From positions 1 through 64,000 of the forward strand of contig JBCCHV010000023.1 of NCBI GenBank assembly GCA_039028635.1: a stretch of 64,000 nucleotides of DNA, in the 5' to 3' direction. Both the position numbers and the translations under genes were made by a program. Numbering within the stretch: position 1 is the stretch's first letter; every line of letters starts with the position of its first letter. Under the pieces are notes generated by a model. It did not search any database. It was given only the letters and a program-made list of their open reading frames with translations, and had not been told where the DNA came from. The DNA comes from Acidobacteriota bacterium (GTDB lineage Bacteria; Acidobacteriota; Thermoanaerobaculia; Multivoradales; JBCCEF01). Below, one piece after another: positions 6,571 to 64,000 of this stretch.

Positions 6571-8307
6571 TCATCCTTTCTTGGCGGCCTTGGCCTTGTC
6601 CGTTCCGCGCTCTTTGAACCAATTGTATGCCCCTTGCTGCGCGATCGTCAGCACGTTGTTGGTCAACCAGTAGAGGACCAGACCGCTGGGGAAATTGAGG
6701 AACAGGAAGGTCATGAACACCGGCATCAGCTGGAAGATTCGACGCTGCATGGGGTCGCCACCCATCGGCGTCATGCGCTGCTGAAGGAACTGCGTTCCTC
6801 CCATGATCAAGGGCAACGCATAGTAGGGGTCGGCCACCGAGAGATCCTTGATCCAGCCCAGCCAGGGCGCATTGCGCAACTCCACCGCCGCTCCGAGGAG
6901 GCGGTAGAAGGCGAACAACACCGGAAGCTGCAACAGCATCGGCAGACAACCGCCGGCCGGATTCACGCCCTCGCTCTTGTAGAGGGCCATGATCTCCTCG
7001 TTCATCTTGCGCTGGGCCTCCATGTTGGGGCGGCCCTGCTTGTCCTTCAGCTTGGGGCGATAGCGCGACCGGATCGCCTGCATCTTCGGCGACAGCTCCT
7101 GCATGCGACGCGCCGACTTGTAGCTCTTGTGGGTCAGCGGCGCCAACACGATCTTGATCGCCGTGGTCAGCAGAACGATCGACCAACCGTAGTTGGGCAC
7201 CACGTTCTCGTAAATCCACATCAAGCCCGCGAACAGCAAGCGGGCGAAGAACCCGAAAATCCCCAAGGTGATGGTCTCGTCGAGACCGTAGGGCAGCTTG
7301 CTGAGGCGGCGAATATCCTTGGCGCCCCAGTAGTTCTCGAGCTCGATCCGATCCGAGGTCGGCTGCAGCAGGAGCGCGTAGTCGGTTTGCAGGTCCTTCT
7401 GTTCCTTGGTCAGCGCATCCTTCGGCGGTACCGCCTCGAAGCTCCATCGACCATCCGCACCGGGCAACACGAACAGCGGCTCGAAGACGACTCCGCGCAG
7501 CGGCGTCGCCGGCGACGGAATCGACGCGGTCAAGAAGTAGTGGTCCTCGAGACCCACCCAGGTCATGCCGGTGCCCGGCAGGACCTCCGGCTCGAAGCCC
7601 TTCTTGGCCTCCACCCGCTCCATGTCGCCGCCCAGGCGATAAACCCCGCCACGCTCCTGGCCGAAGCGATTGTCGAGCTCGTCGAGGGTCGGGTTGCGCA
7701 AGCCGGGACCAAGCCAGAGGTTCCAGTCCTGCGGCCGCTCGACCTCGATCTTGGTCTCGAGGAAACCGTCGCGGCGGAAGTGGAAGCTCTTCTCCGCCGC
7801 CCCGAGGGGGCCGCGATAGCGAAAGACGACCTGCCGCTCGCCCTCGCCGTCCAGGTCTTCGACCTCGAACAGAGCCCGGTTGAGCTCGAGCGGACTGGCG
7901 CTACCTCCGGCCACCAGCGCGAAGGGCTGGAGGCCACCCTGGCGGAAGCGCACCAGGTCGACGTCGTCCCCTTCGGCGGTGCGGTGGTTCTTGAGGCGGA
8001 ACGACAGCAGCACGGCTCCGCGGTTGCTGAGCTCGGCTCGGAAGCGTTCCGTGTCGACCACCACGCGCTCCTCGGCGGTCGCGCCCAGGCGCGCCTCTTC
8101 CTCGGACTCGGTCGCCGCACCCTCCGCCACCTCCGGGACCTCGGACTCGTCCAGCGCCGCTTCCACCGGCAATGCCTCTTCGACCGCTGGCACGGGCTGG
8201 ATCTCGTCGCCGGGAGGCCGCACGGGCTGAACCGGGAAGAAGTAATTCCAGGTAAGCAAAATCCCCAACGACAACACGAAGGCGAGTAACAGTCGCCGGA
8301 TATCCAA
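6571..8307 (-). CDS. yidC: Membrane protein insertase YidC
   Basis: 578 residues, the long Gram-negative form. TM1 near the N-terminus (RRLLLAFVLSLGILLTW) is followed by an acidic linker, a large periplasmic beta domain, and the conserved insertase core with five TM segments. Core motifs include YGWSIVLLTTAIKIVLAPLT, KSYKSARRMQELSPKM, GCLPMLLQLPVLFAFYRLL and FPSGLVLYWLTNN. It inserts membrane proteins with or without SecYEG. The start codon is TTG at 8307. It is transcribed with the rnpA-yidD genes upstream and jag downstream. The periplasmic domain supports a two-membrane envelope. Confidence 0.96.
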   Translation of the reverse strand: MDIRRLLLAFVLSLGILLTWNYFFPVQPVRPPGDEIQPVPAVEEALPVEAALDESEVPEVAEGAATESEEEARLGATAEERVVVDTERFRAELSNRGAVLLSFRLKNHRTAEGDDVDLVRFRQGGLQPFALVAGGSASPLELNRALFEVEDLDGEGERQVVFRYRGPLGAAEKSFHFRRDGFLETKIEVERPQDWNLWLGPGLRNPTLDELDNRFGQERGGVYRLGGDMERVEAKKGFEPEVLPGTGMTWVGLEDHYFLTASIPSPATPLRGVVFEPLFVLPGADGRWSFEAVPPKDALTKEQKDLQTDYALLLQPTSDRIELENYWGAKDIRRLSKLPYGLDETITLGIFGFFARLLFAGLMWIYENVVPNYGWSIVLLTTAIKIVLAPLTHKSYKSARRMQELSPKMQAIRSRYRPKLKDKQGRPNMEAQRKMNEEIMALYKSEGVNPAGGCLPMLLQLPVLFAFYRLLGAAVELRNAPWLGWIKDLSVADPYYALPLIMGGTQFLQQRMTPMGGDPMQRRIFQLMPVFMTFLFLNFPSGLVLYWLTNNVLTIAQQGAYNWFKERGTDKAKAAKKG

Positions 8308-49057: not shown

Positions 49058-49570
49058 ATGAAGCACTATGCTCTGGCCTTGGCCATTGCGGGGGTCGCTC
49101 TGGTCGGCTCGCCGATGGCGGCCGAGGTCGCCCATGAGACTCATCAACAAGCCGAGCTCCGGCTCAGTGTTGGCGGAGAGCGCGGACTGGAAGAGTTCGT
49201 GGTGCGTGTGCCGGTGGGTTCACCGGCTCGCTATGAGCGCTATGGCGGTCCAACCCTCGAGCTGGTGCCCACCCTGCTTCGAGCATCTCCCGACAGCAAG
49301 CCCGTCATGAACGTCGAGGTCTACGAGGTTCTCGAGCTGGCCGGCTCACGCCAGCCCAACCTCCTCGGCGTGGTGTCGGCACAGCCCGGAAAGTCCCAAG
49401 CCATCCCAGGTGCTGGCGGTCTGATCGCCCTCGAGGGGGCTCGGCTGGTTGCAGTTCCCGGACCTGATGATTCTGATTTTCGCCCTCGGAATTGCTGTAT
49501 TTCTTGTGGCGATAATATGTTGTGTGGAGGATCCGTCGATACGTCGTGCGGTTCCTGCGACGTTCGGTGA
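49058..49570 (+). CDS. Exported protein with C-terminal cysteine-rich tail
   Basis: 170 residues. Signal peptide (ALALAIAGVALVGSPMAAEV), a central beta-rich region with no family I recognise, and a C-terminal stretch from residue 145 with six cysteines (NCCISCGDNMLCGG and TSCGSCDVR). The tail pattern CCxxC(x)5CGG(x)5CGSC could bind a metal, form disulfides, or be a processing/maturation region as in ribosomal peptides; nothing proves any of these. AGGGAAG precedes the ATG. Not on a transcript with the peptide exporter as far as seen. Confidence 0.65.
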   Translation: MKHYALALAIAGVALVGSPMAAEVAHETHQQAELRLSVGGERGLEEFVVRVPVGSPARYERYGGPTLELVPTLLRASPDSKPVMNVEVYEVLELAGSRQPNLLGVVSAQPGKSQAIPGAGGLIALEGARLVAVPGPDDSDFRPRNCCISCGDNMLCGGSVDTSCGSCDVR

Positions 49571-51568: not shown

Positions 51569-51597
51569 TTGACCTACCGATCGAACGGGCGTAGCCT
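51569..51597 (+). promoter_or_regulatory. Candidate promoter of the peptide-export locus
   Basis: TTGACC (51569-51574), a 17-bp spacer and TAGCCT (51592-51597). It matches -35 at 5 of 6 and -10 at 3-4 of 6. It would start transcription near 51604, just before a palindromic operator-like site and the 35-residue peptide gene. Confidence 0.5.
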
Positions 51598-51622
51598 TAA
51601 GTGCTCGTTTTTTCAGATTTTC

Positions 51623-51641
51623 GATCACACCGATTGTGATC
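51623..51641. promoter_or_regulatory. Palindromic operator-like site before the peptide gene
   Basis: GATCACA-CCGAT-TGTGATC: 7-bp perfect inverted arms around 5 bases. The arms contain TCACA/TGTGA, the half-sites used by CRP/FNR-type regulators but in the everted order. It lies between the candidate transcription start and the peptide ATG (51690), where bound protein would block transcription; it could also form a leader hairpin. Confidence 0.5.
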
Positions 51642-51689
51642 ACCGCCGGACCGGGGTCCATTGGCGTCCGGCCGGAAAGGAGGACACTC

Positions 51690-51797
51690 ATGAAGGTGAA
51701 GACCAACGTCAAGGCGGGTCTCGCTCCGACCTGCGGTTGCGGCGCAACCGGTAGGAAGGGCCACAAGACCAGCTATCAGGGCCGTCACACCGGCTAA
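51690..51797 (+). CDS. Small 35-residue peptide with CGCG motif, putative export substrate
   Basis: Reads MKVKTNVKAGLAPT, then CGCGATG, then RKGHKTSYQGRHTG, with stop TAA. AAAGGAGG, a near-perfect ribosome binding site, is 6 bases upstream. Two cysteines (15, 17) and a very basic, Gly/Lys/His-rich end are notable. The candidate promoter and palindrome lie upstream, and an HlyD-type adaptor and two exporter ABC genes follow within about 100 bp. It has no clear double-glycine leader (KAG and GA are weak possibilities) and no nearby modification enzyme. Function is unknown; export by the adjacent system is inference from position and size. Confidence 0.7.
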   Translation: MKVKTNVKAGLAPTCGCGATGRKGHKTSYQGRHTG

Positions 51798-51900
51798 ACC
51801 CGGCTGGCTGAGCTCGCGGCGCGCTGTGGTGCCGGCGGCTGGTCGCAGCCGGCGCCGGGCCGCCACCTGGAAGACCTGTTCCCGGAACGGGTGAGTCGTC

Positions 51901-53085
51901 GTGTCCTTACCCGACCCCAAATCCTTCCCTTTTTCCAGATCCACCTCCTTGATCGCCGGTGACGATCTCCGGCGCTGGCTGCCGCGTCTCGGAATCGTCA
52001 CCTTCTTCCTGCTCGCCTGGGGCGGCTGGTTCGCCTGCGGCGAGATCCGGGTGTACGAGGTCGCCACCGAAGCTCGCCTCGAGAGCGCCGCCGAAGTCCA
52101 TCCCGTCGACGCTCCCCTCGGTGGCCGGATCGTGGCGGTCCACGCTCGTCTCGGTGAGGCGGTTGCCGCCGGCGACCCGCTGTTCGATCTCGAAGCGGAA
52201 GACGCCGAGTTCGAGCTCACCGAGGCCAAGACCCGTCTCGAGGCGCTCGAGCGCCAGCTCGCCTCGATCGCGGAGGAGTCCGATCTGGTGGCGAGACTCT
52301 TGGATCTCGAGCGCGCCGCCGGTCAAGAACGGCTGCGGGCCGCGGGCTTGCAGCAAGAGGTCGAAACGATCGTCGGGCGGGTGGCGGAATCGGAGCATCA
52401 GCGGGCTCGACGGCTGCACGAAGAGGGCCTGTTGTCCGACCTCGATCGGCAGCGCTACCGCGGCGAGGTCGAGAAGAGCCGCGCTCGCTCCGAAGCCGAA
52501 AGCGCCGATCTCGAAGCCCTCCAGACCTCGATCCGCGGCCAGCAGACGGAGCTCGAAGCCCGTGCCGCCCACCTCGAGCATGAGCGGGTCACGGTGCAGG
52601 GGGAGGCCGCGGAGCTGGCTGCCCACCTCGAGCATTTGCAGCATGAGATCGCCGAGCGGAGAGTGGTGGCTCCCGTCGCTGGGCGAGTGGCGCGCCTTGC
52701 CGAGGTGCAGGTCGGAGCGGTGGTGGCGACCGGCGAGCGGCTGGCCGACGTGCTGCCCGACGGAGCGATCCGCGCCGTCGCCTGGTTTCCGCCCTCAGCG
52801 CTCGGTCGGCTCGCTCCGGGGCAGTCCGCCTGGCTGCGCCTCGACGCCTATCCCTGGACCGACTTCGGTGCCGTCGAAGCCACCGTCGAGCGGGTTGCCG
52901 ACGAGCCGAACGATGGCCGACTGCGCGCCGAGCTGGCTCTCGCGCCGTCGCCCCCCCGTGGCGTTTCGCCGCGACACGGTCTGACCGCGACGGCCGAGGT
53001 CGCCGTCGAGACGGTGACTCCGGCGCGCTGGGTGCTGCGCGCCGCCGGCGGAACCCTCGACCGGCCGGTGCCCAGCGGCGGCTGA
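51901..53085 (+). CDS. HlyD-like membrane fusion (periplasmic adaptor) protein
   Basis: 394 residues from GTG 51901. One TM (RLGIVTFFLLAWGGWFA, about 30-47), then the first lipoyl half (PVDAPLGGRIVAVHARLGEA), a long charged coiled-coil hairpin (about 105-240), the second lipoyl half (APVAGRVARLAEVQVGAVVA) and a beta-barrel. It would link the ABC exporters to an outer-membrane channel not encoded here. Its size and place match NHLM-type secretion proteins. 103 bp after the small peptide. Confidence 0.85.
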   Translation: MSLPDPKSFPFSRSTSLIAGDDLRRWLPRLGIVTFFLLAWGGWFACGEIRVYEVATEARLESAAEVHPVDAPLGGRIVAVHARLGEAVAAGDPLFDLEAEDAEFELTEAKTRLEALERQLASIAEESDLVARLLDLERAAGQERLRAAGLQQEVETIVGRVAESEHQRARRLHEEGLLSDLDRQRYRGEVEKSRARSEAESADLEALQTSIRGQQTELEARAAHLEHERVTVQGEAAELAAHLEHLQHEIAERRVVAPVAGRVARLAEVQVGAVVATGERLADVLPDGAIRAVAWFPPSALGRLAPGQSAWLRLDAYPWTDFGAVEATVERVADEPNDGRLRAELALAPSPPRGVSPRHGLTATAEVAVETVTPARWVLRAAGGTLDRPVPSGG

Positions 53086-53110
53086 AGCGGGAGCTCCTCG
53101 GGGCCGCGGG

Positions 53111-55801
53111 ATGACGAGAACGATGAATGCGCCGAAGCGTCGTTTTCTGATTCCGGAAACGGTGCAGTCTTCGGCGATGGACTGCGGTCCCGCGGTTCTC
53201 TGCTCGCTGCTTGCCGGCTTCGGAATCGAGGCCGCCTACGGGCGCCTGCGGGAGGCCTGTCAGACCGGCATCGACGGCACTTCCATCGCGGCCATCGAAG
53301 AGCTTGCGACGGCCTCCGGACTGGAGGCGGAGCAGGTCATGGTGCCGGCCGAAGACCTGCTGATCCCTTCGGCCCAGGCCCTACCGGCGGTGGTGGTCGT
53401 GCTCGCCGGAGGAGTCACTCACTTCGTCGTCCTTTGGCGGCGCCACGGCTCGCGCCTCCAAGTGATGGACCCAGCGACCGGCCGCCGCTGGCCGTCGGCC
53501 CGCCGTTTTCTCGACGACGTCTACGTTCACCAGCACGAAGTGGCGGCGGCCGACTGGCGGCAGTGGTCGGAAGGGCCCGAGGCGACGGCGATCGTGCGCT
53601 CACGGTTGAGCCGCCTGGGCGCGGAAGCCGCCGCCGACAGGATTCAAGAGTCGGCTCGGGCGGTTCCGGGCTGGCTCGGCCTGGCGGCCCTGGATGCGGC
53701 GACTCGCCTGTGCGACAGCCTGAGCTCGGCCGGCGCCATCCGGCGCGGCCCGGAGGCGACCCGTCTGGTGGAACGCCTGGCGGTCGAGGCGGCCGCCGCC
53801 GACCGGCCGGAGAAGATCGTTCCTGCGCGCTTTTGGTCGGTCCGGCCGGCGACAGTGACCGAATCGCCGGCGTCCGCGACCGCTCTGACGCTGCGCGGTG
53901 CCGTCCTGGTGCGGGCTCTCGGCCGGAGGCAGACGGCCGACTCGCCGACGATTCCTTCACTACCCGGAGTCGGTCCTCGGCTCGGCGACTCGGTGGCGCC
54001 AAGAAGCGAGCCGGGGCCGATGCGGCGGCTGCTCGGATTCCTGCGCCAGGGCGGACGACGCAGCCTGATGGCGCTGGGTGCGGCCGCGGCGGTGGCTTCC
54101 CTCCTCGCCGCCTGCGAGGCTCTGCTGCTCAACGGCCTGCTCCGCATCGCAGATCAGCTCGGCGGAACCGGCCAGCTGCCGGGGGCGCTGGCTGTCTTGC
54201 TCGCCTTCGCCGCCGCGCTGGCGCTTCTCGAGCTCACCGTCGCCCTTGGTGCCCGCGATCTCGGTCGCGGCCTCGAAGCGCGCCTGCGAGTGGCCTTTCT
54301 GGAGAAGATTCCACGCCTCGGCGAGCGCTGGTTTCGCAGCCGGTTGCCGTCCGATCTCGCCGAACGGGCCCACAGCGCCGTGTGGTTGCGCACGTTCCCT
54401 GCGGCCGTTCTGGGCATTCTCGGCGCCGGCTGCGAGCTGGCCGTCACCGCCCTCGCCCTCGGTTGGCTGTTCCCCGGAACCGCTCCCCTGGCGGTCCTCG
54501 CCGCCGTCCTCGCCGTTGCCGTGCCCCTGGCGCTCCAGCCCTTCCTCGGCGAGCGCGAGCTGCGCATGCGACATCACGGCGCGGCCCTGGCTCGCCTCCA
54601 GCTCGATGCACTGCTCGGTCTGCTGGCGGTTCGCTCCCATGGCGCCGAGCCGCTGGTGCGGCGCCAGCACGACGAGATTCTGGAGCATTGGCAGGAAGCC
54701 GGAACCAGCCAGCTTCGCGGTGCCCTGGCGGCGATGGTGGTGCAGTCGTTGGTGGGTTACGGGATGGCGGCGGCGCTGGTCGGGCTGCACGTCGCGGACC
54801 ACGGAATCGGGGGAGGTGCCCTCTTGCTCGCCTACTGGGCGCTCAAGCTTCCCGAGCTCGGCGGCGAGATCGCCGCCGGCCTCGAGCAGATTCCGTCCCA
54901 TCGCAGCGTGGCGGTGCGAATGCTGGAGCCCCTCGGAGCGCCGGACTACGAGTCCGAGACCGGGGCCGAGGTCCACGCCGTCTCACGAGGATCCCAAGGC
55001 GTTGCCATCTCGCTGCACGGCGTATCCGTGACGGGGGCGGGTGGTCCCGTTCTCGAAGGTCTCGACCTCGAGATCGGAGCCGGTCGCCGGGTGGCGGTTC
55101 TGGGTCCGTCGGGCGCTGGAAAATCGACCCTGCTCGGGCTTCTCCTGGGTTTGCAAACGCCCGCCGAAGGCGAAACTCGAATCGACGGCGAGCTTCTCGA
55201 TGCCGTGGTTCTGGCGCGCCTACGGGCCGCCACCGCCTGGGTCGACCCGGGGGTGCGGTTGTGGAATCGTCCGCTGCTCGACAACTTGCGCTACGGCGCA
55301 GAATCGCGGGCGGCGCCGCTGGCTGACCTGCTCTCCGCCGCCGAGTTGGTGGGAGTCCTCGAAGAGCTGCCCGAAGGCCTCGCCACGCGCCTCGGGGAGG
55401 GCGGCGGCTTGGTCTCCGGCGGTGAAGGGCAGCGGGTGCGCTTTGGTCGCGCCCTCGGACGGCCGGCGGCCCGTCTGGTGCTGCTCGACGAGCCCTTTCG
55501 CGGTCTCGACCGCGCGCAGCGCACCCGCCTACTCCAGAACGCTCGCGAATGGTGGCCCCGCGCCACCTTGATCTGCGCCACCCACGATGCCGCTTCGGTG
55601 CGGGACTTCGACCAGATGGTGATTCTCGACGGCGGCCGCATTGTCGAAGCCGGCGAGCCGGCCAAGCTGGCGGTCGATTCCGGCTCCCGCTACGGACGCC
55701 TGCTCGAGAAAGAAGCCGCTGCCTGGGCCGATCCGGATTGGCGACGACTGCATCTCGTCGACGGATGTATTTCCGCAAGCCCAGTGGAGGCGGAGCGATG
55801 A
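53111..55801 (+). CDS. Peptidase C39-domain ABC exporter
   Basis: 896 residues. The N-terminal C39 cysteine peptidase has an intact triad: Gln19 and Cys25 in QSSAMDCGPA, His104 in GGVTHFVVLWR, Asp120 in QVMDPATGR. A ~150-residue linker leads to a TMD (about 310-600) and an NBD with Walker A GPSGAGKSTLLG (from Gly665), signature VSGGEGQRVRFGRAL and Walker B LVLLDEP. The peptidase would cleave leader peptides during export. The long linker is unusual for simple bacteriocin exporters. It overlaps the next gene by 4 bp (ATGA). Confidence 0.9.
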   Translation: MTRTMNAPKRRFLIPETVQSSAMDCGPAVLCSLLAGFGIEAAYGRLREACQTGIDGTSIAAIEELATASGLEAEQVMVPAEDLLIPSAQALPAVVVVLAGGVTHFVVLWRRHGSRLQVMDPATGRRWPSARRFLDDVYVHQHEVAAADWRQWSEGPEATAIVRSRLSRLGAEAAADRIQESARAVPGWLGLAALDAATRLCDSLSSAGAIRRGPEATRLVERLAVEAAAADRPEKIVPARFWSVRPATVTESPASATALTLRGAVLVRALGRRQTADSPTIPSLPGVGPRLGDSVAPRSEPGPMRRLLGFLRQGGRRSLMALGAAAAVASLLAACEALLLNGLLRIADQLGGTGQLPGALAVLLAFAAALALLELTVALGARDLGRGLEARLRVAFLEKIPRLGERWFRSRLPSDLAERAHSAVWLRTFPAAVLGILGAGCELAVTALALGWLFPGTAPLAVLAAVLAVAVPLALQPFLGERELRMRHHGAALARLQLDALLGLLAVRSHGAEPLVRRQHDEILEHWQEAGTSQLRGALAAMVVQSLVGYGMAAALVGLHVADHGIGGGALLLAYWALKLPELGGEIAAGLEQIPSHRSVAVRMLEPLGAPDYESETGAEVHAVSRGSQGVAISLHGVSVTGAGGPVLEGLDLEIGAGRRVAVLGPSGAGKSTLLGLLLGLQTPAEGETRIDGELLDAVVLARLRAATAWVDPGVRLWNRPLLDNLRYGAESRAAPLADLLSAAELVGVLEELPEGLATRLGEGGGLVSGGEGQRVRFGRALGRPAARLVLLDEPFRGLDRAQRTRLLQNAREWWPRATLICATHDAASVRDFDQMVILDGGRIVEAGEPAKLAVDSGSRYGRLLEKEAAAWADPDWRRLHLVDGCISASPVEAER

Positions 55802-57918
55802 CGCTCGAGGGCGCCCTGGCCTGGCCGGAGGAACGCTTGACCGCGGCGATTCCGGCCCTCGCCCGCGCCGCCGGTTTGGCCGGCGACCGCTCGGCCCACG
55901 GCGAGGGTGGAGGGGAGGCGGAAGGGAACACCGAGACCAACCCCGCGGCCATCGCCGCCTCGGCCCAGCGGGCGGGAGTCGAGGCCTGGCCGGTTTCGGC
56001 TTCCTATCGGGATGTCGACCATCTGCTGTCCGGCGTCGAGCCGTTGCTACTTCGGTCGACCGGGAACGACCGCTGGCTGGCGATACTCGGGGGCGGGGCG
56101 CGAGTCCGTCTGGTCAGCGCCGACGGCTCGATCGTCCGACTGCCGGCGCGGCGCTTGGCCGCCGTCTTGCGCGCTCCCCTCGAAGACGAGGGCGCTCACG
56201 AGGTCGAGGCTCTTCTCGAACGCGCCGGAGTTCCGGCCCGACGCCGGCCTCGCGCCGGCCGCGCCCTGCTCAGCGAGCGCCTCCGCGGTGAGCCTTGTGT
56301 CGAGGGCTGGTCGCTGCGCTTGCCGCCTGGGGCCCGCACCTCGAGTCAGCTTCGCCGCGCCGGCTTGTTCGGCCGCCTCGGTCGCCTGGCCATTGCCCAC
56401 GCCGCCTCCTGGGTCTTGTTGATCACTTCCTGGGCTGTGCTCGGTCGCGGCGTTCTCGAGGGCCGTCTCGATCCCGGTTGGCTGGTTGCCTGGGCCCTTC
56501 TTCTCGTCACCTTGATTCCTCTGCAGGCGGTGGCTTTGTGGTCCGAGGGGACGGCGGCCCTCGGCGCCGGTGCTCTGCTCAAACATCGTCTGCTGGCGGG
56601 CTCCCTGCGGCTCGACCCGGAAGAGATCCGCGACCAAGGTGCCGGCGAGCTGCTCGGGAAGGTGATGGAGGCCGAGCGGGTCGAAGATCTGGCCCTTGGT
56701 GGCGGCTTCACCGCGATGCTGGCCATCGTCGAGATCGCTCTCGCCGCCGGCGTGCTCGCCCTGGGGGCCGGCGGTGCATTGCATGCCCTATTGCTCGTCG
56801 GCTGGCTCTTCGCCCTCGGCGTGGCCGGCTGGCGGCTCTACCTCGAACGGCGGGGCTGGGCCGAAGAGAGGGTCGGCATGACCGACCATCTGGTCGAACG
56901 CCTGCTCGGCCAGCGGACCCGACTGGTCCAGGAGTCCCGAGAGCACTGGCACGACGCCGAGGACGCCGAGCTGGAGAGCTATCTGCAGCGCTCGCGGCGC
57001 CTCGACAGACTGATGCCGCGCATCCAGATCTTCGCCACCCGCGGCTGGCTCCTCGCCGCCTTGCTCGCCCTGGCACCGGCGCTCCTCTCCGGTGGCACCT
57101 CGGCCGCCTCCGTGGCGATCGCCTTGGGAGGAATCCTGCTCGCCGCGCGCGGACTTCAGGGCGTGGCCGGTGGCCTTTCGAGCCTGACCGCGGCCGCCGT
57201 CGCATGGCGTCAGGTGGCGAGCCTCTACGGCGCCGCGACGCGCCGAGAACCGGAGGGTTCCCCCGAGATCGACTCCGTTGCCGAAGCCGAAACCCGAGAT
57301 GCCGACGCCGTGGTGCTGACCGCCCAGGGCATCGACTTTCGCTACCCCGGCCGTGGTCGCCGAACCCTCGACGCCTGCGGCCTCGAGCTCCGGTCCGGCG
57401 ATCGCGTTCTCCTCTCCGGCGACTCCGGCAGCGGCAAGTCCACCCTGATCTCCCTGCTGGCGGCCCTGCGGCGGCCGCAGGCGGGGGTCATGCTGCTGCG
57501 CGGCGCCGATCTGCACGCTTGGGGCGCCATCGCTTGGCACCGCCGAGTGGCGGCGGCACCGCAATTCCACGACAATCATCTCTTCGCCGCCCCGCTGGCT
57601 TTCAACCTCCTCCTCGGGCGCAACTGGCCGCCGAGCCCAGAGGATCTCGCCGTCGCCGGCGAGATCTGCGACGAGCTCGGCCTCGGTGAGCTCATCACCC
57701 GCATGCCCGCCGGCCTCATGCAGCCCATCGGCGAGAGCGGCTGGCGCCTCTCCCACGGCGAAGCCAGCCGCGTCTACCTCGCCCGGGTGCTGCTCCAAGA
57801 GCCCGACATCGTCCTCCTCGACGAGAGCTTCGCCGCCCTCGACCCCGCCAGCCTAGAAACCGCCCTCGGCTGCGCCCGCCGCCGAGCCAACACCCTTCTC
57901 ATCGCCACCCACGATTGA
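55798..57918 (+). CDS. Second ABC exporter with degenerate N-terminal domain
   Basis: 706 residues. The N-terminal ~180 residues keep beta-strands like a C39 domain (DRWLAILGGGARVRLVSADG, IVRLPARRLAAVL) but lack the catalytic Cys and His. A TMD (about 200-470) follows, then an NBD with Walker A GDSGSGKSTLISLL (Gly541 on), signature LSHGEASRVYLARVL (LSGGQ variant), Walker B IVLLDES and H-loop LLIATHD. It probably forms a heterodimer or partner with the C39 exporter upstream, as in NHLM systems. It is translationally coupled (ATGA). Confidence 0.88.
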   Translation: MTLEGALAWPEERLTAAIPALARAAGLAGDRSAHGEGGGEAEGNTETNPAAIAASAQRAGVEAWPVSASYRDVDHLLSGVEPLLLRSTGNDRWLAILGGGARVRLVSADGSIVRLPARRLAAVLRAPLEDEGAHEVEALLERAGVPARRRPRAGRALLSERLRGEPCVEGWSLRLPPGARTSSQLRRAGLFGRLGRLAIAHAASWVLLITSWAVLGRGVLEGRLDPGWLVAWALLLVTLIPLQAVALWSEGTAALGAGALLKHRLLAGSLRLDPEEIRDQGAGELLGKVMEAERVEDLALGGGFTAMLAIVEIALAAGVLALGAGGALHALLLVGWLFALGVAGWRLYLERRGWAEERVGMTDHLVERLLGQRTRLVQESREHWHDAEDAELESYLQRSRRLDRLMPRIQIFATRGWLLAALLALAPALLSGGTSAASVAIALGGILLAARGLQGVAGGLSSLTAAAVAWRQVASLYGAATRREPEGSPEIDSVAEAETRDADAVVLTAQGIDFRYPGRGRRTLDACGLELRSGDRVLLSGDSGSGKSTLISLLAALRRPQAGVMLLRGADLHAWGAIAWHRRVAAAPQFHDNHLFAAPLAFNLLLGRNWPPSPEDLAVAGEICDELGLGELITRMPAGLMQPIGESGWRLSHGEASRVYLARVLLQEPDIVLLDESFAALDPASLETALGCARRRANTLLIATHD

Positions 57919-57998
57919 ACAGGGCTGCCCGAGGGGCGGCGGGCTCGACGATTGCGACTCTGGTCGTCCCCACCAACCTTCCTGAAAGACCAGAACGG

Positions 57999-58048
57999 TT
58001 GTCAGGGAGCTCGCTGGTGGTTACCATTTATTCGAACATTGCAATGTT
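57999..58048 (+). promoter_or_regulatory. Promoter with overlapping palindrome upstream of a small membrane protein
   Basis: TTGTCA (57999-58004), 17-bp spacer, TACCAT (58022-58027); then a 14-bp perfect palindrome AACATTGCAATGTT (58035-58048) at the likely transcription start. A repressor bound there would block the promoter. TTGCAAT also occurs just before the ATG at 59275. Confidence 0.55.
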
Positions 58049-58061
58049 ATTTCGAAAGACC

Positions 58062-58358
58062 ATGAAAAGCCCTGCCCTGCGTCCGCCGCTGCCGCCCGTG
58101 CTACGGCCCTGGGTTGCGGTGGTCGCTGTGCTGTTCTTGCTCGGCTCTCAAGGGATCCTCATGGTCGAGCATCAGCACGAGGATGGTGTCGACCAGGACT
58201 GCGCGCCTTGCCACGTCGCTCACGTTCAAGGGACCGTGCCGCAGACGCCGATCGCGGCGCCGAGCTTGCGCGAGGTGGGCGATTCTGTTCCCTGTCCGGT
58301 CCGCTCCGCTGTCCTGGCGGCTCGCACTCTCCTCCCCTGCCGCGGTCCGCCTGCCTGA
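58062..58358 (+). CDS. Small membrane protein with HxH/CxxC (DUF2946-like)
   Basis: 98 residues from ATG 58062. One TM segment (WVAVVAVLFLLGSQGIL) precedes EHQHEDGVDQDCAPCHVAH, then a proline-rich stretch and an end of LLPCRGPPA. The H-x-H...C-x-x-C plan with an RGPP end resembles DUF2946-type proteins, thought to bind metal ions in the periplasm. Its partner at 59275 has the same plan. The upstream palindrome suggests regulated expression. A longer upstream start exists but has no promoter. Confidence 0.65.
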   Translation: MKSPALRPPLPPVLRPWVAVVAVLFLLGSQGILMVEHQHEDGVDQDCAPCHVAHVQGTVPQTPIAAPSLREVGDSVPCPVRSAVLAARTLLPCRGPPA

Positions 58359-59274: not shown

Positions 59275-59556
59275 ATGCAGATAACTCTCAGAGGTCGAGA
59301 AAGCCGGCTGGTCGCCTTCGCGGCGATCGCCCTGCTCGCTTTCTCCCTCTGGGTGGGACTCCACGGCCACGAGCATCTAACGGAGTTCGAGGCCGAGTGT
59401 GCTCCTTGTCAGCTTCTGCTGTCGGAGGCCATCAGCACGGTTCCGCTGACCGCGATTTCTTTGGTGGTGGCCGCGCAGTCCGTGGAAGCTCTGCCGAGCA
59501 TTCCCCTGCTCGAGACGACCCTCGACCTCGGCTCTCCCCGCGGTCCCCCTTCCTGA
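59275..59556 (+). CDS. Small membrane protein with HxH/CxxC (DUF2946-like), paralogue of 58062-58358
   Basis: 93 residues. One TM segment (LVAFAAIALLAFSLWVGL), then HGHEHLTEFEAECAPCQLLL and an end of SPRGPPS. The same TM - HxH - acidic - CAPC - RGPP plan as the protein at 58062 marks the two as related, though the middle diverges. A weak TGGACA-17-TAAAGT promoter (59239-59267) would start almost at the ATG (leaderless). Metal binding is inference. Confidence 0.65.
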   Translation: MQITLRGRESRLVAFAAIALLAFSLWVGLHGHEHLTEFEAECAPCQLLLSEAISTVPLTAISLVVAAQSVEALPSIPLLETTLDLGSPRGPPS

Positions 59557-59941
59557 GTCGTACCACCCTCCGACGACTCGAGTTCCCCCGACGATCGGGG
59601 TTCTCGACGATCGGTCCCACGACGCCTTCTGAACAGATCGCCGTGAGCTTCGCCTAGCTCGCCTCGCCACCGTTGCCGGTGGCGCGGTTCGAGACTGGGC
59701 GTGTTGTCGCTGGCATCCGAGACGAAGGCCCTTCGGCCGCCTGCTTCGCCTACCGCGTAGGTGTCGCGGGTGGTGATCCATCGTCCCGTCGGTGATTCAC
59801 CGGTAGATCGCCGGTTTATCCGATGGGTGAGGTCCAGAAGCGCAGCGGCTCCCCGAAGCTCCCTTCGGCGGGTCGAGGTTCCGAAGCATTCGGTGTGTCC
59901 TTCAGGACGCCGTTGCTTCGGTCTGGGGGATCTAGGACGTG
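59557..59941. other. Intergenic region before the NRPS gene
   Basis: 385 bp with no convincing gene on the plus strand. A GC hairpin CCCCGA-CGA-TCGGGG (59586-59600) could terminate the small-protein transcript, and GACGATCGG is repeated 16 bp apart (59590 and 59606). No clear promoter was recognised. AGGA precedes the NRPS ATG. Confidence 0.5.
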
Positions 59942-62900
59942 ATGGCTTTTCAACGAGCCGCCCGTGCGAAGGTGGAATCCTTCGACCAGATCGTTCGGCG
60001 CCGGGCCGGCGACCATCCCGAGCGCACCGCCTTCCGCTTTCTGGCGCGAGGCGAGGAGCTCGTCGCCGAGCTCAGCTATGGCGATCTCGATCGCCGAGCG
60101 CGGGTGTTGGCGGCGCGCCTTCAGGGCGTCGGCGAGCCCGGTGATCGAGCGCTGCTGGTCTTGCCGCCTGGGCTCGACTTCGTGGTGGCTTTTGTCGCCT
60201 GCCTGTACTCCGGCCGAATCGCGGTGCCGGTGTCGCCGCCGCGCCCTGGTCGGCCGTCGCCGGCGCTCGAAGCCGTCCTCGCCGATGCTCGCCCGCGGTG
60301 GCTGCTCGAGGGTGGCGGTGCCGGCGACCGTGCCGGGCGGCTCTATCCCGAGTTGAAGGCGCTGACGGCGGTCGCCGTCGACGATCTCGTCACCTCGGGA
60401 GAAACCCGGGATCTCGGCGCTTCGTGGCGGCCGCTTGCCGCCGATCCGGACGCCATTGCCCTGATTCAATACACCTCGGGCTCGACCCGCCGGCCACGGG
60501 GGGTCGTCGTCCGTCACCGCAATCTGCTCCACAACCAGGAGCAGATCCGCGACGCCTTCGATCAGTCTGAGCATTCGGTGGTGGTGAGTTGGCTGCCGCT
60601 CTACCACGACATGGGGCTTCTCGGAGCGGTTCTGCAGCCGCTCTATTGCGGCGCGACCTGTGTGCTGATGCCGTCGGCGTCCTTCGTGCAGCGGCCGCGC
60701 CGCTGGCTCGAGGCGATCGACCGCTACCGCGGTACGACCGCCGGTGGTCCCGACTTCGGTTACGCCCACTGCGTGCGGCGAATCCCTCCCGAGGAACGCG
60801 CCGGCCTCGACCTGTCGTCGTGGCGAGTCGCCTTCAATGGCGCCGAGCCGGTGCGTGCCGACACCCTGGATGCCTTTGCCGAGGCCTTCGCTCCCGTCGG
60901 CTTCGACCGTTCTGCGTTCTTCCCCTGCTACGGGCTGGCGGAGTCGACGCTGTTCGTTTCCGGCGGTCGGGCAGGTTCCGGAGCCCGGGTCGCGAGCTTC
61001 GATCCAGCGGCCTTGGAAGGGCACCACGCCGAGCCTGCGGAGGCCGCCGCGGGACGACGGCTGGTGGCCTGTGGCGGGCCGCGCGGCGATCAGCGGATCG
61101 CGGTGGTCGATCCACAGCGTCGGCGGGCCCTTGCGACCGGCCGGATCGGCGAGATCTGGGTCCATGGCGACAGTGTGGCGGCCGGCTATTGGGGACGACC
61201 GGAGGAGACGGCGAGCGTCTTCGGCGCCGCCCTCGCCGAGAAAGAAGGGGCTTCCGATCCCCGCTTCCTTCGAACCGGTGATCTCGGTTTCGTCGACGCC
61301 GCCGGCGATCTCTTCGTCACCGGCCGACTCAGCGACCTGATGGTGCTGCGCGGCCGCAACCTCCATCCCCATGATCTCGAAGCGGTCGCCTCGGCCTGCG
61401 CGGGCATTGCTGGCGCGGCGGCCTTCGAGGCCGAGGTGGCGGGGGAGCGGCGGGCGGTGGTCGTGGTCGAGGTCGGCCGCCGACCCCGACCGGACGCCGT
61501 GGCCCGAGCCGCGGCGGCGGTGAGGGCGGCCGCGGCCTCCGAGATGGAGGTCGCCGCGACCGTGGTTCCAGTGACAGCCGGCGCGATTCCGCGAACCACC
61601 TCGGGCAAGGTGCGGCGCGCGGCATGTCGAGCGGCCTGGTTGGCCGGGGATCTGCCGGTCGTCGAAACGCCCGCCGAAGAGCTCGCCGCCGTCGAGGCGC
61701 CCGCTGCCGAGCCGACTTCGTCTGCGGCTCCCTCCGAGCCGGGTCCGGCGTCGCTCCATGACGGCGGCGCGATGGCGGGGCGTCGAGCGGTCCTCGATTG
61801 GCTCGAAACCGTCGCCGAGGAGTGCCTCGAAGGCCCCGTCGCCCGCCAGCGGCCGCTGGTGGAGCAAGGCCTCGACTCCCTCGCCGCCACCGAGCTGGCA
61901 CATCGCATCGAGCGCACCCTCGGGAGCGGGTTGAGCGCGGCCGACCTGCTCGGCGGCGCCTCCTTGTCGGTGCTCGCCGCAAGGCTGTCGACCGGTGGCG
62001 ACGCCTTGCAGCCGGGGCCGCTGAAGCCACCGGAGCCGCCCGGGCCGCCGGGCCGCTTTCCGCTGTCGCCGGCGCAGCTCGGTCTGTGGATCGAGTGGCG
62101 CCGAAATCCCGACTCGGCCGCACTCCACATCGCCGGTGCCGCGGAGCTCGAGGGCGAAACCGATGTCCTTCGGCTGGGTACTGCCATCGCCTCCTTGAGC
62201 GCGCGCCACGCCGCCCTGCGGACCCGCTTCCCGGCGGCCGGTGCCAGCGCCGTGCAGGAAGTGCTGGCCGAGGTGGCGCCGGACTGGCAGGTGATCGACG
62301 CGACGGGCTGGAGTCGTTCCCGACTCGAGCAGGCGGCGTCTGCCGAGGCCTATCGGCCCTTCGATCTGCAGGCGGCTCCGGCGGTGCGCTTTCGCCTCTA
62401 CCGCCGGTCCAGCAGGCGCGATGTCCTGGTCGTTTCGGTACATCACCTGGTCGCGGACCTCGGCTCCTTCGCCGTGCTGGTAGCCGAGCTCGGCGCCCTG
62501 GCGTCGGCTCCTGACTCGCCGTTGCCGCCGGTGGCGACGGATTCGCCGGCGGTCGATCGCTGGCGCCAGAGTCGGCTCGAAGGCGAGCGGGGCGACCAGA
62601 TTCGCAGTCGCTGGCGGGAGGTTCTCGACCCCCTCCCGGAGGATCTCGATCTGACCCCGGACCGCCCCCGGCGAGCGCGCTTCCGGGGGCGTGCCGGCAG
62701 CGTGCAGCGCACCCCCGAGGGATTGCGGTCGGACCTCGAAGGAATCGCCGCGGCGGTCGCCGTGACGCCCTTCGCGGTGCTCCTCGCCGGCTGGCGCGCA
62801 CTTCTGCTTCGCCATGGCGGGGGCGGCGACTTCGTCGTTGCGACGCCATCGGCCGGGCGTGATCATCCGTTGCTTGCTCGCGTGATCGGGTACCTGGTCG

Positions 62901-64000
62901 AACGGACTCTGGTGCGCAATCCGGTCACGGCCGCGAGCTCCTTCGCGGAGATCGCCGCCGCCGAAGGAAAGGCCCTGCGGGACGCCCTGGAGCGTGCCGA
63001 GGTGCCGCTGGCAGAGCTCGTCGGCGAGCTGCTTGGCGACCGCGATCCCTCGCGACCGCCGCTGGCTCAGACCGTCGTCAACTGGCAGTCGGTCCACCGT
63101 GAGGCGGAAGGAGCGTCACGGCCGGGTCGATCGGCGTCCTCGCGAGGCGGCGTCCTCGCCGGCTTCGCGTTCGGCGTTCCCGAGCTCGAGGTCCTCGCTG
63201 GCGACCTGAAGCTGGTGTCGTTCCCGCTGCAACGGCCTGCTTGCCAGGTCGAGCTCGAGCTGACTGCGGCGGCAGCGCCGGGGGGCGGTCTGATTCTCGA
63301 TCTGCTGTTCGACCGCGACCTCCATGACCCGACGACCGCTGAGCGCCTCCTCGATCACCTCGTCGCCCTGATCTCGGCCGCGGCCGCCGATCCTGATCGG
63401 CCGCTATCGCACCTGCCTCTGCTCTTGCCGACCGAGCAGCGCGAGCTCGAGTTGTGGAATCACACCGGTCCGGGAACGGTCGGCGGAGCGCTGCTTCCGG
63501 AGCGGATCGTCGCCACCGCCCAGCGTCATCCGACCACGGCGGCCCTGATCGGCGAGGCGGAAGAGGTGCTTTACCCGGACCTCGTCGCCCGCGCCCAAGC
63601 CGTGGCGGTGCGGCTCCAGGCCCTCGGCGCCGGTCCAGAGACGGTCGTCGCCGTCGCCGGCGAGCGTTCTCCCGAGCGTCTCGTCGGGTTCCTCGGCGTT
63701 CTCCTCGGCGGAGCTGCCTACCTACCGCTGCCGGCCGGCGAGCCCTCCGCCCGGGTGGCGACGATGCTGGCGGCGGCGCGGCCGGTGGCGATTCTCGCCA
63801 TCGGAGACGGCGAGGCGCTCTTGGCCCACGGCTTGCCGGTGCTGCGCCTCGTCGACGTGGCGGCACGGGATTCCGCCTGGCGCCCGCCGGCCGTCGAGCC
63901 CGCCCATCCGGCGTACGTGCTCTTCACTTCCGGCTCGACCGGCCAGCCGAAGGGCGTCGTCGTTCCCCACGGCGCGCTGCTCAACCGTCTGGTCTGGATG
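59942..64000 (+). CDS. FAAL-ACP-C-A nonribosomal lipopeptide synthetase (3' end outside window)
   Basis: Open for 1353 codons to the window edge. Residues ~1-585 are a fatty-acyl-AMP ligase (IQYTSGSTRRPRGVVV, LPLYHDMGLLGAVLQPL, YGLAESTLFVSGG, RGRNLHPHDLE). A carrier domain has its phosphopantetheine serine at Ser646 (GLDSLAATEL). A condensation domain (about 700-1140) has HHLVADLGSF (His834, His835), a variant seen in lipid-loading C domains. The A domain begins near 1165 and shows LFTSGSTGQPKGVV (1327 on) before the sequence ends. It would load a fatty acid and condense it with an amino acid to start a lipopeptide. Downstream domains and product are not visible. Confidence 0.93.
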   Translation, partial: MAFQRAARAKVESFDQIVRRRAGDHPERTAFRFLARGEELVAELSYGDLDRRARVLAARLQGVGEPGDRALLVLPPGLDFVVAFVACLYSGRIAVPVSPPRPGRPSPALEAVLADARPRWLLEGGGAGDRAGRLYPELKALTAVAVDDLVTSGETRDLGASWRPLAADPDAIALIQYTSGSTRRPRGVVVRHRNLLHNQEQIRDAFDQSEHSVVVSWLPLYHDMGLLGAVLQPLYCGATCVLMPSASFVQRPRRWLEAIDRYRGTTAGGPDFGYAHCVRRIPPEERAGLDLSSWRVAFNGAEPVRADTLDAFAEAFAPVGFDRSAFFPCYGLAESTLFVSGGRAGSGARVASFDPAALEGHHAEPAEAAAGRRLVACGGPRGDQRIAVVDPQRRRALATGRIGEIWVHGDSVAAGYWGRPEETASVFGAALAEKEGASDPRFLRTGDLGFVDAAGDLFVTGRLSDLMVLRGRNLHPHDLEAVASACAGIAGAAAFEAEVAGERRAVVVVEVGRRPRPDAVARAAAAVRAAAASEMEVAATVVPVTAGAIPRTTSGKVRRAACRAAWLAGDLPVVETPAEELAAVEAPAAEPTSSAAPSEPGPASLHDGGAMAGRRAVLDWLETVAEECLEGPVARQRPLVEQGLDSLAATELAHRIERTLGSGLSAADLLGGASLSVLAARLSTGGDALQPGPLKPPEPPGPPGRFPLSPAQLGLWIEWRRNPDSAALHIAGAAELEGETDVLRLGTAIASLSARHAALRTRFPAAGASAVQEVLAEVAPDWQVIDATGWSRSRLEQAASAEAYRPFDLQAAPAVRFRLYRRSSRRDVLVVSVHHLVADLGSFAVLVAELGALASAPDSPLPPVATDSPAVDRWRQSRLEGERGDQIRSRWREVLDPLPEDLDLTPDRPRRARFRGRAGSVQRTPEGLRSDLEGIAAAVAVTPFAVLLAGWRALLLRHGGGGDFVVATPSAGRDHPLLARVIGYLVERTLVRNPVTAASSFAEIAAAEGKALRDALERAEVPLAELVGELLGDRDPSRPPLAQTVVNWQSVHREAEGASRPGRSASSRGGVLAGFAFGVPELEVLAGDLKLVSFPLQRPACQVELELTAAAAPGGGLILDLLFDRDLHDPTTAERLLDHLVALISAAAADPDRPLSHLPLLLPTEQRELELWNHTGPGTVGGALLPERIVATAQRHPTTAALIGEAEEVLYPDLVARAQAVAVRLQALGAGPETVVAVAGERSPERLVGFLGVLLGGAAYLPLPAGEPSARVATMLAAARPVAILAIGDGEALLAHGLPVLRLVDVAARDSAWRPPAVEPAHPAYVLFTSGSTGQPKGVVVPHGALLNRLVWM

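Follow-up and report, generated by a model that had tools for sequence, protein, structure and literature searches.

The locus at positions 51690-57918 of the window (the whole 64,000-nucleotide stretch of DNA analysed here) raises the question of what its peptide exporter carries, and of how this cargo is recognised. Substrates of C39 peptidase exporters are usually found via their double-glycine leaders. A gene for a 35-residue peptide lies directly upstream of the exporter genes, and the answer developed here begins with it.

Gene content of the locus

All genes of the locus are on the forward strand. The precursor peptide ORF (51690-51797; 35 aa, MKVKTNVKAGLAPTCGCGATGRKGHKTSYQGRHTG) is preceded by the ribosome-binding site (RBS) AAAGGAGG (51676-51683), with a 6 nt spacer to the ATG, and is followed by genes encoding (i) an HlyD-type membrane fusion protein (51901-53085, GTG start; PF13437, 68.5 bits, cut-off 22.2), (ii) a peptidase-containing ABC transporter, C39-ABC (53111-55801; PF03412, 63.5 bits, cut-off 22), and (iii) a second ABC exporter (55798-57918; PF00005, 73.4 bits), which overlaps the stop codon of the C39 gene (ATGA). 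The start of this last gene is most likely the ATG at 55798, and not position 55549. The earlier note had described the same arrangement, i.e. a tiny ORF with a strong RBS followed by HlyD, C39-ABC and a second ABC exporter, and all of its elements were confirmed; its statement that no modifying enzyme lies nearby also held, as none was recognised (Pfam) among the window neighbours tested.

The sole congener in our set (G001) carries the ORF MKVKTKVKAGLAPTCGCGARGKGDHKPSYLGRHTR ahead of the same HlyD/C39/ABC set. The two peptide ORFs share 79% identity, 17 of their 28 nucleotide differences fall at third codon positions, and the codon changes comprise 12 synonymous and 8 non-synonymous ones. 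The G001 counterpart, together with this third-position bias, identifies the 35-aa ORF as a real gene and not a chance ORF.

Upstream of the peptide gene there is a perfect inverted repeat (GATCACA-CCGAT-TGTGATC, 51623-51641), a candidate operator that was not seen upstream of the peptide gene in G001. No promoter or terminator consensus was found around the gene, and a hairpin 3' of it was no better than those of shuffled sequences. A plasmid search gave only weak, unrelated matches. Two small ORFs (57915-58358 and 59275-59556), neither of which belongs to a Pfam family, have a hydrophobic N-terminal stretch, then a His-rich stretch followed by CxxC, and terminate in a conserved RGPP(A/S); the former has a 44% identical relative directly downstream of the exporter in G001. 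On the other side of the locus, ORF 49058-49570 encodes a protein that probably has a signal peptide, is Cys-rich at its end (NCCISCGDNMLCGGSVDTSCGSCDVR) and gave no Pfam match, while positions 59939-64000 hold the start of a large NRPS-like gene (acyl-AMP ligase, condensation and adenylation-like regions) that runs off the window.

Exporter proteins

The C39-ABC protein is homologous to the ComA, PCAT1 and LahT chains. Its catalytic C39 domain (encoded at about 53111-53560) is fused to the TMD and NBD of an ABC transporter, which is the architecture of a PCAT; PF03412 and PF00005 score above cut-off, and PF00664 (TMD) reaches 24.3 bits, under its cut-off of 28. Residues Q19, C25, H104 and D120 are invariant in all 43 C39 domains compared, which bears out the intact Cys25/His104/Asp120 reported previously and adds Gln19 to them. 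An AlphaFold model of the domain (8 sequences) had a pLDDT of 44 and was set aside. At its N-terminus the second exporter has a C39-like domain that is degenerate, lacks the Cys region and could be aligned with C39 (hhalign, prob 94.8, E 5.4e-8). The same genome also encodes a second, different C39 domain protein (L001, G000:C41:52272-52658; 119 bits to PF03412).

A family of very short peptides with a common N-terminal tag

Scanning of 84,980 species genomes with a DNA pattern that encodes K(V/I)KT(N/K)(V/I)KAG yielded 56 loci. About twenty of these were judged to be chance matches, with the motif inside unrelated ORFs; the remainder are tiny ORFs starting at the block or shortly before it. 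Pooling of the scan with later finds gave about 97 distinct tag ORFs, a few of which are internal starts within multi-repeat forms. Most encode 15-35 aa (a few multi-repeat forms reach up to 159 aa), and they occur in at least seven phyla: Acidobacteriota, Planctomycetota, Chloroflexota, Myxococcota, Gemmatimonadota, "Deltaproteobacteria" and Gammaproteobacteria. Since the patterns favour AAR/AGR lysine/arginine codons and near-exact cores, these counts are lower bounds; most of the matches are MAGs.

Residues 2-10 are KVKTNVKAG-like across the 97 ORFs, a similarity that is partly built into the search pattern. The block ends in Ala-Gly in 96 of the 97 compiled members and in Val-Gly in one. 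Conservation ends at Gly10, and from residue 11 onwards the tail, mostly of 5-25 residues, is hypervariable. An RBS-like motif precedes 93 of the 97 family ORFs, as against 17% of control ATGs (22 of the loci). This excess, the congener ORF and the third-position bias together rule out a chance-ORF reading of the 35-aa gene.

The earlier note had taken CGCG and the basic tail for the characteristic part of the peptide and had proposed conservation as the check. The ORF itself is conserved in G001; CGCG and the basic tail are kept only between these two congeners, and in the family compilation the window core resembles the congener core alone. CGCG, found in this genus only, was therefore rejected as a family signature, which is the N-terminal MK(V/I)KTx(V/I)KAG.

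The number and arrangement of the precursor genes vary considerably. One exporter is accompanied by one to 13 precursor genes per relative, with different cores. In L046/L140 a tandem array of 13 precursors follows a single exporter; the arrays of L062, L079 and L095 have 7, 6 and 5 precursors, respectively, and L096 carries 3 identical copies of an SVNWG precursor. Dispersed copies are represented by six pattern matches in G033 and five in G044. In L185 the tag stands behind N-terminal extensions, immediately ahead of a short tail. In multi-repeat precursors (L074:7450-7950, L089, L121:11700-11910) the block is repeated before each unit in a polyprotein-like manner, with units such as KVKTNVKAGGHQxNHNQT... 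and KVRTGVKAGGPFLQHNK...; the latter repeat form is carried by G017. The carriers include a named, non-MAG strain, Methyloglobulus morosus KoM1 (L049), which has both a tag precursor and the exporter in its genome, and whose predicted exported peptide is RRGRRGHRRNPAEHGPNHT.

Apart from the microviridin-type members described below, no model in Pfam, NCBIfam or PHROGs covers the family, in agreement with the earlier suggestion of a short peptide of an undescribed class. No relevant paper was found for the tag strings in the open PMC literature searched, although absence from all literature is unproven. With their common predicted export tag and a dedicated protease-transporter, the tag peptides form an uncatalogued bacterial family of wide distribution and very small size, which points to many secreted peptides still hidden in seven phyla or more.

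Co-occurrence of the tag and the exporter

Presence of the exporter in 59 relatives was scored by C39 domain type. A relaxed tag match was obtained in 9 of 15 exporter-positive and in none of 44 exporter-negative relatives (p=4e-7). Looser searches, run on the exporter-positives, added G002 (MKIRTGIKAGCPRNDDDGGGE) and G330, the latter with two tandem ORFs that have N-terminal extensions and end in LKINTNVKAGGVLISD and LKINTNVKAGGVVISD; no tag peptide was detected in four of the 15 (G022, G025, G027, G038). In an even sample of the phylum (297 genomes) the tag was matched in 4 of 7 carriers versus 3 of 290 non-carriers (p=3.8e-6, or p=0.0023 without the window's genus). Two of the three non-carrier matches have no RBS and look like chance, and the third is MKFRTALRAG... 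in G194.

Among the 24 genomes reached via the peptide pattern, 17 contain a C39 domain 51-66% identical to that of the window, whereas the other C39 domains found in these genomes are only 32-35% identical to it. Such a domain was not seen in 7 of the 24 tag-bearing genomes, most of which are draft MAGs. At many loci no more than a few hundred bases separate the peptide genes from the exporter, which they may precede or follow; other peptide genes are located elsewhere in the genome. The tag family co-occurs with this exporter and is often adjacent to it; linkage to, or co-inheritance with, a C39 exporter, as expected of double-glycine peptides, is thus found for the tag peptides. The possibility raised earlier that the precursors lie elsewhere in the genome applies to many relatives, with dispersed genes and one exporter, but not to the window, where the precursor is directly upstream.

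The tag as a probable C39 leader

Locus L084 of a Planctomycetota MAG contains two tandem precursors, MKKPNKTENRPFFARFLEGQEYPKVKTNVKAGATKPAFDTDHTLKYPSDSDEV and MKSPQQSEKRHFFARFLEGQEFPKVKTNVKGGVTTRISDTAHTLKYPSDDDEGGPTA (7256-7415 and 7660-7845), after the same exporter type. Both pass microviridin models (NF033738, 51.6 and 47.5 bits, cut-off 26; PF12559), and KVKTNVKAG or KVKTNVKGG stands in them between the PFFARFL recognition motif (ATP-grasp) and the TLKYPSD core. In these sequences the tag is located where C39 cleavage would be expected. A PFFARYL...KVKTNVKAG precursor was also found in L070/L139/L215, followed by an MvdD-like ATP-grasp gene (386 bits, under the equivalog cut-off of 475). 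In microviridin classes II and III, double-glycine motifs go together with C39 transporters, and cleavage after GG was demonstrated for the C39 domain of one graspetide system (PMC13039773). The tag suggests how some Planctomycetota microviridins may lose their leader.

In the window, the pattern scan and the family compilation delimit a predicted leader or export tag, MKVKTNVKAG (51690-51719), with putative cleavage after Gly10. The predicted exported core, LAPTCGCGATGRKGHKTSYQGRHTG (25 aa, 51720-51794), is placed by its position after the tag, in the part that is hypervariable across the family. Because the N-terminal block reads as a very short C39 leader, the cargo is probably this 25-residue tail, and not the 35-mer.

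Known C39 leaders end in GG, GA or GS and are hydrophobic at positions -4, -7, -12 and -15 (PMC7018657). The tag ends in Ala-Gly (one microviridin-type member has GG), and only its position -4 (V/I/L/M) is hydrophobic; -7 is K/Q/R/N/E, while -12 and -15 do not exist in a ten-residue leader. The window leader has Lys at -3, -7 and -9. If the model is right, leader recognition must differ from that of known leaders, because the hydrophobic positions and the acidic character are absent.

We consider it quite probable that a PCAT subfamily recognises a leader that is both basic and very short, cleaves it behind Ala-Gly and carries the tail out of the cell. At the window locus the 35-residue precursor would comprise the ten-residue leader MKVKTNVKAG and the 25-residue core. 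Two genes downstream lies the gene for the transporter whose N-terminal C39 cysteine peptidase would recognise this leader and cut after Ala9-Gly10; release of the core from the cell would fall to the HlyD adaptor together with the pair of ABC exporters, of which one has a catalytic C39 domain and the other a degenerate one. Since no modifying enzyme was recognised nearby, the core would probably be exported unmodified, perhaps with a CGC disulfide. A broader proposal, to which we give somewhat less than an even chance, is that this portable, Lys-rich and probably extended ten-residue tag defines a distinct C39 substrate class without the hydrophobic positions, in which one exporter per genome would serve scattered micro-genes for unmodified signalling peptides of 5-25 residues in Acidobacteriota as well as in six or more further phyla.

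Possible functions of the exported peptides

We put the chance that the secreted peptides act as signals at about even. Signalling is favoured by the combination of one exporter with many diverse cores, by cores as small as five residues, by the absence of any immunity-like or modifying gene that recurs near the exporters, and by the ECF sigma genes beside six loci. In L046, L042, L060, L070, L082 and L196 a Sigma70_ECF (PF07638) gene is found at most about 300 bp from a tag gene, in four cases divergent from it, which may reflect regulation. ECF sigma factors were the only recurring neighbour family recognised apart from the exporters, and the six adjacencies compare with a rough, post hoc expectation of 0.4-0.9 over about 39 sites. 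As a pointer to a pheromone role this adjacency is only suggestive.

Of the other readings, that of small bacteriocins or microcins used in competition has perhaps one chance in a few of being correct. C39 exporters frequently carry bacteriocins, multi-copy arrays and hypervariable cores are typical of competition arms, and the window core is cationic (pI 9.8). However, many cores are of 5-7 residues, below the size for known bacteriocin mechanisms, some are acidic (ADAWD, pI 4.1), and no recurring candidate immunity gene was found near the exporters; one to 13 precursors with different cores per exporter fit a diversifying peptide signal better than a bacteriocin. Somewhat less probable is an unlinked RiPP, i.e. 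a core modified by enzymes encoded elsewhere, with a larger leader system of which the tag would be the half used for export. The same tag does occur inside the Planctomycetota microviridin-type precursors, one of which adjoins the MvdD-like ATP-grasp gene, but a ten-residue leader has little room for an enzyme recognition site, many cores (SVNWG, ADAWD, PDISN) have few modifiable residues, and neither the neighbours recurring beside the exporters (ECF sigma factors only) nor the window neighbours tested include a modification family.

A metal-binding product, based on CGCG and the His residues, is an unlikely explanation even for the window's genus. It would agree with the retention of CGC and the His/Lys tail in G001, and with the small HxH...CxxC protein encoded after the exporter in both genomes, but no metal-related Pfam match was obtained. 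Metal binding, as raised in the earlier note, does not extend to the family and cannot be its function, because most family cores lack Cys. It is very improbable that the tag stays uncleaved and that the peptide serves the exporter as a small regulatory subunit: the single precursor immediately upstream of the exporter in the window would fit, but arrays of up to 13 precursors whose tails differ, gene copies dispersed at a distance from the exporter and internal tags in longer precursors do not. Least probable of all, and negligible in our estimate, is an NHLM-type bacteriocin export locus whose true precursors lie elsewhere. The window has the same HlyD / C39-ABC / ABC trio (PMC2887384), and the earlier view of a compact export locus stands; its assignment to NHLM does not, as the trio scored 46.6 bits (the HlyD protein, TIGR03794, cut-off 156.2), 163.9 bits (TIGR03796, cut-off 853.3) and 87.2 bits (TIGR03797, cut-off 709.4). 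NHLM membership was thus rejected by all three curated cut-offs, and the linked peptide has no NHLP leader.

Comparison with known systems

The short-leader export system proposed here resembles NHLM/NHLP loci in its three-gene set (HlyD, C39-ABC and a peptidase-less ABC exporter) and in the shared phylogenetic profile of exporter and precursor families. The second transporter of the NHLM trio also has no peptidase (PMC2887384) and is comparable to the second exporter of the window. In contrast, the 35-aa window peptide has no long nitrile-hydratase or Nif11 leader and no such NCBIfam match, and its partner proteins fall under the cut-offs. Leaders in the NHLP and Gram-positive bacteriocin logos are acidic, whereas that of the window is Lys-rich (PMC2887384).

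The window exporter has in common with ComA, BlpA, RtgA, LahT and PCAT1 the fusion of a catalytically intact C39 peptidase to an ABC exporter. Its predicted substrate resembles theirs as a short precursor whose N-terminal leader is conserved while the cargo varies, with a hydrophobic residue at -4 and Gly at -1. It differs from double-glycine peptides in that the leader is of ten residues, has Lys at -7, lacks -12 and -15, and ends in Ala-Gly. The likeness to microviridins and graspetides (PF12559, NF033738, MvdC/MvdD) lies in the Planctomycetota precursors, which bear the same tag beside the same exporter type (leader and core in L084, the ATP-grasp gene at L215); the window peptide itself has neither PFFARFL nor a TxKYPSD core, and no ATP-grasp ligase gene was found among the neighbours tested.

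HetC of Nostoc is likewise a PCAT outside Gram-positives, but it possesses a cNMP domain and lacks a neighbouring membrane-fusion gene; double-glycine searching found no substrate for it (PMC10986499). Some exporters outside Gram-positives, such as HetC, are without a known substrate (PMC10986499), and the tag addresses one such subfamily. Being searchable, the ten-residue tag provides candidate substrates for this exporter subfamily in poorly cultivated phyla, and it predicts mature peptides (SVNWG, ADAWD, GGGNYTG and others) that are open to synthesis and testing.
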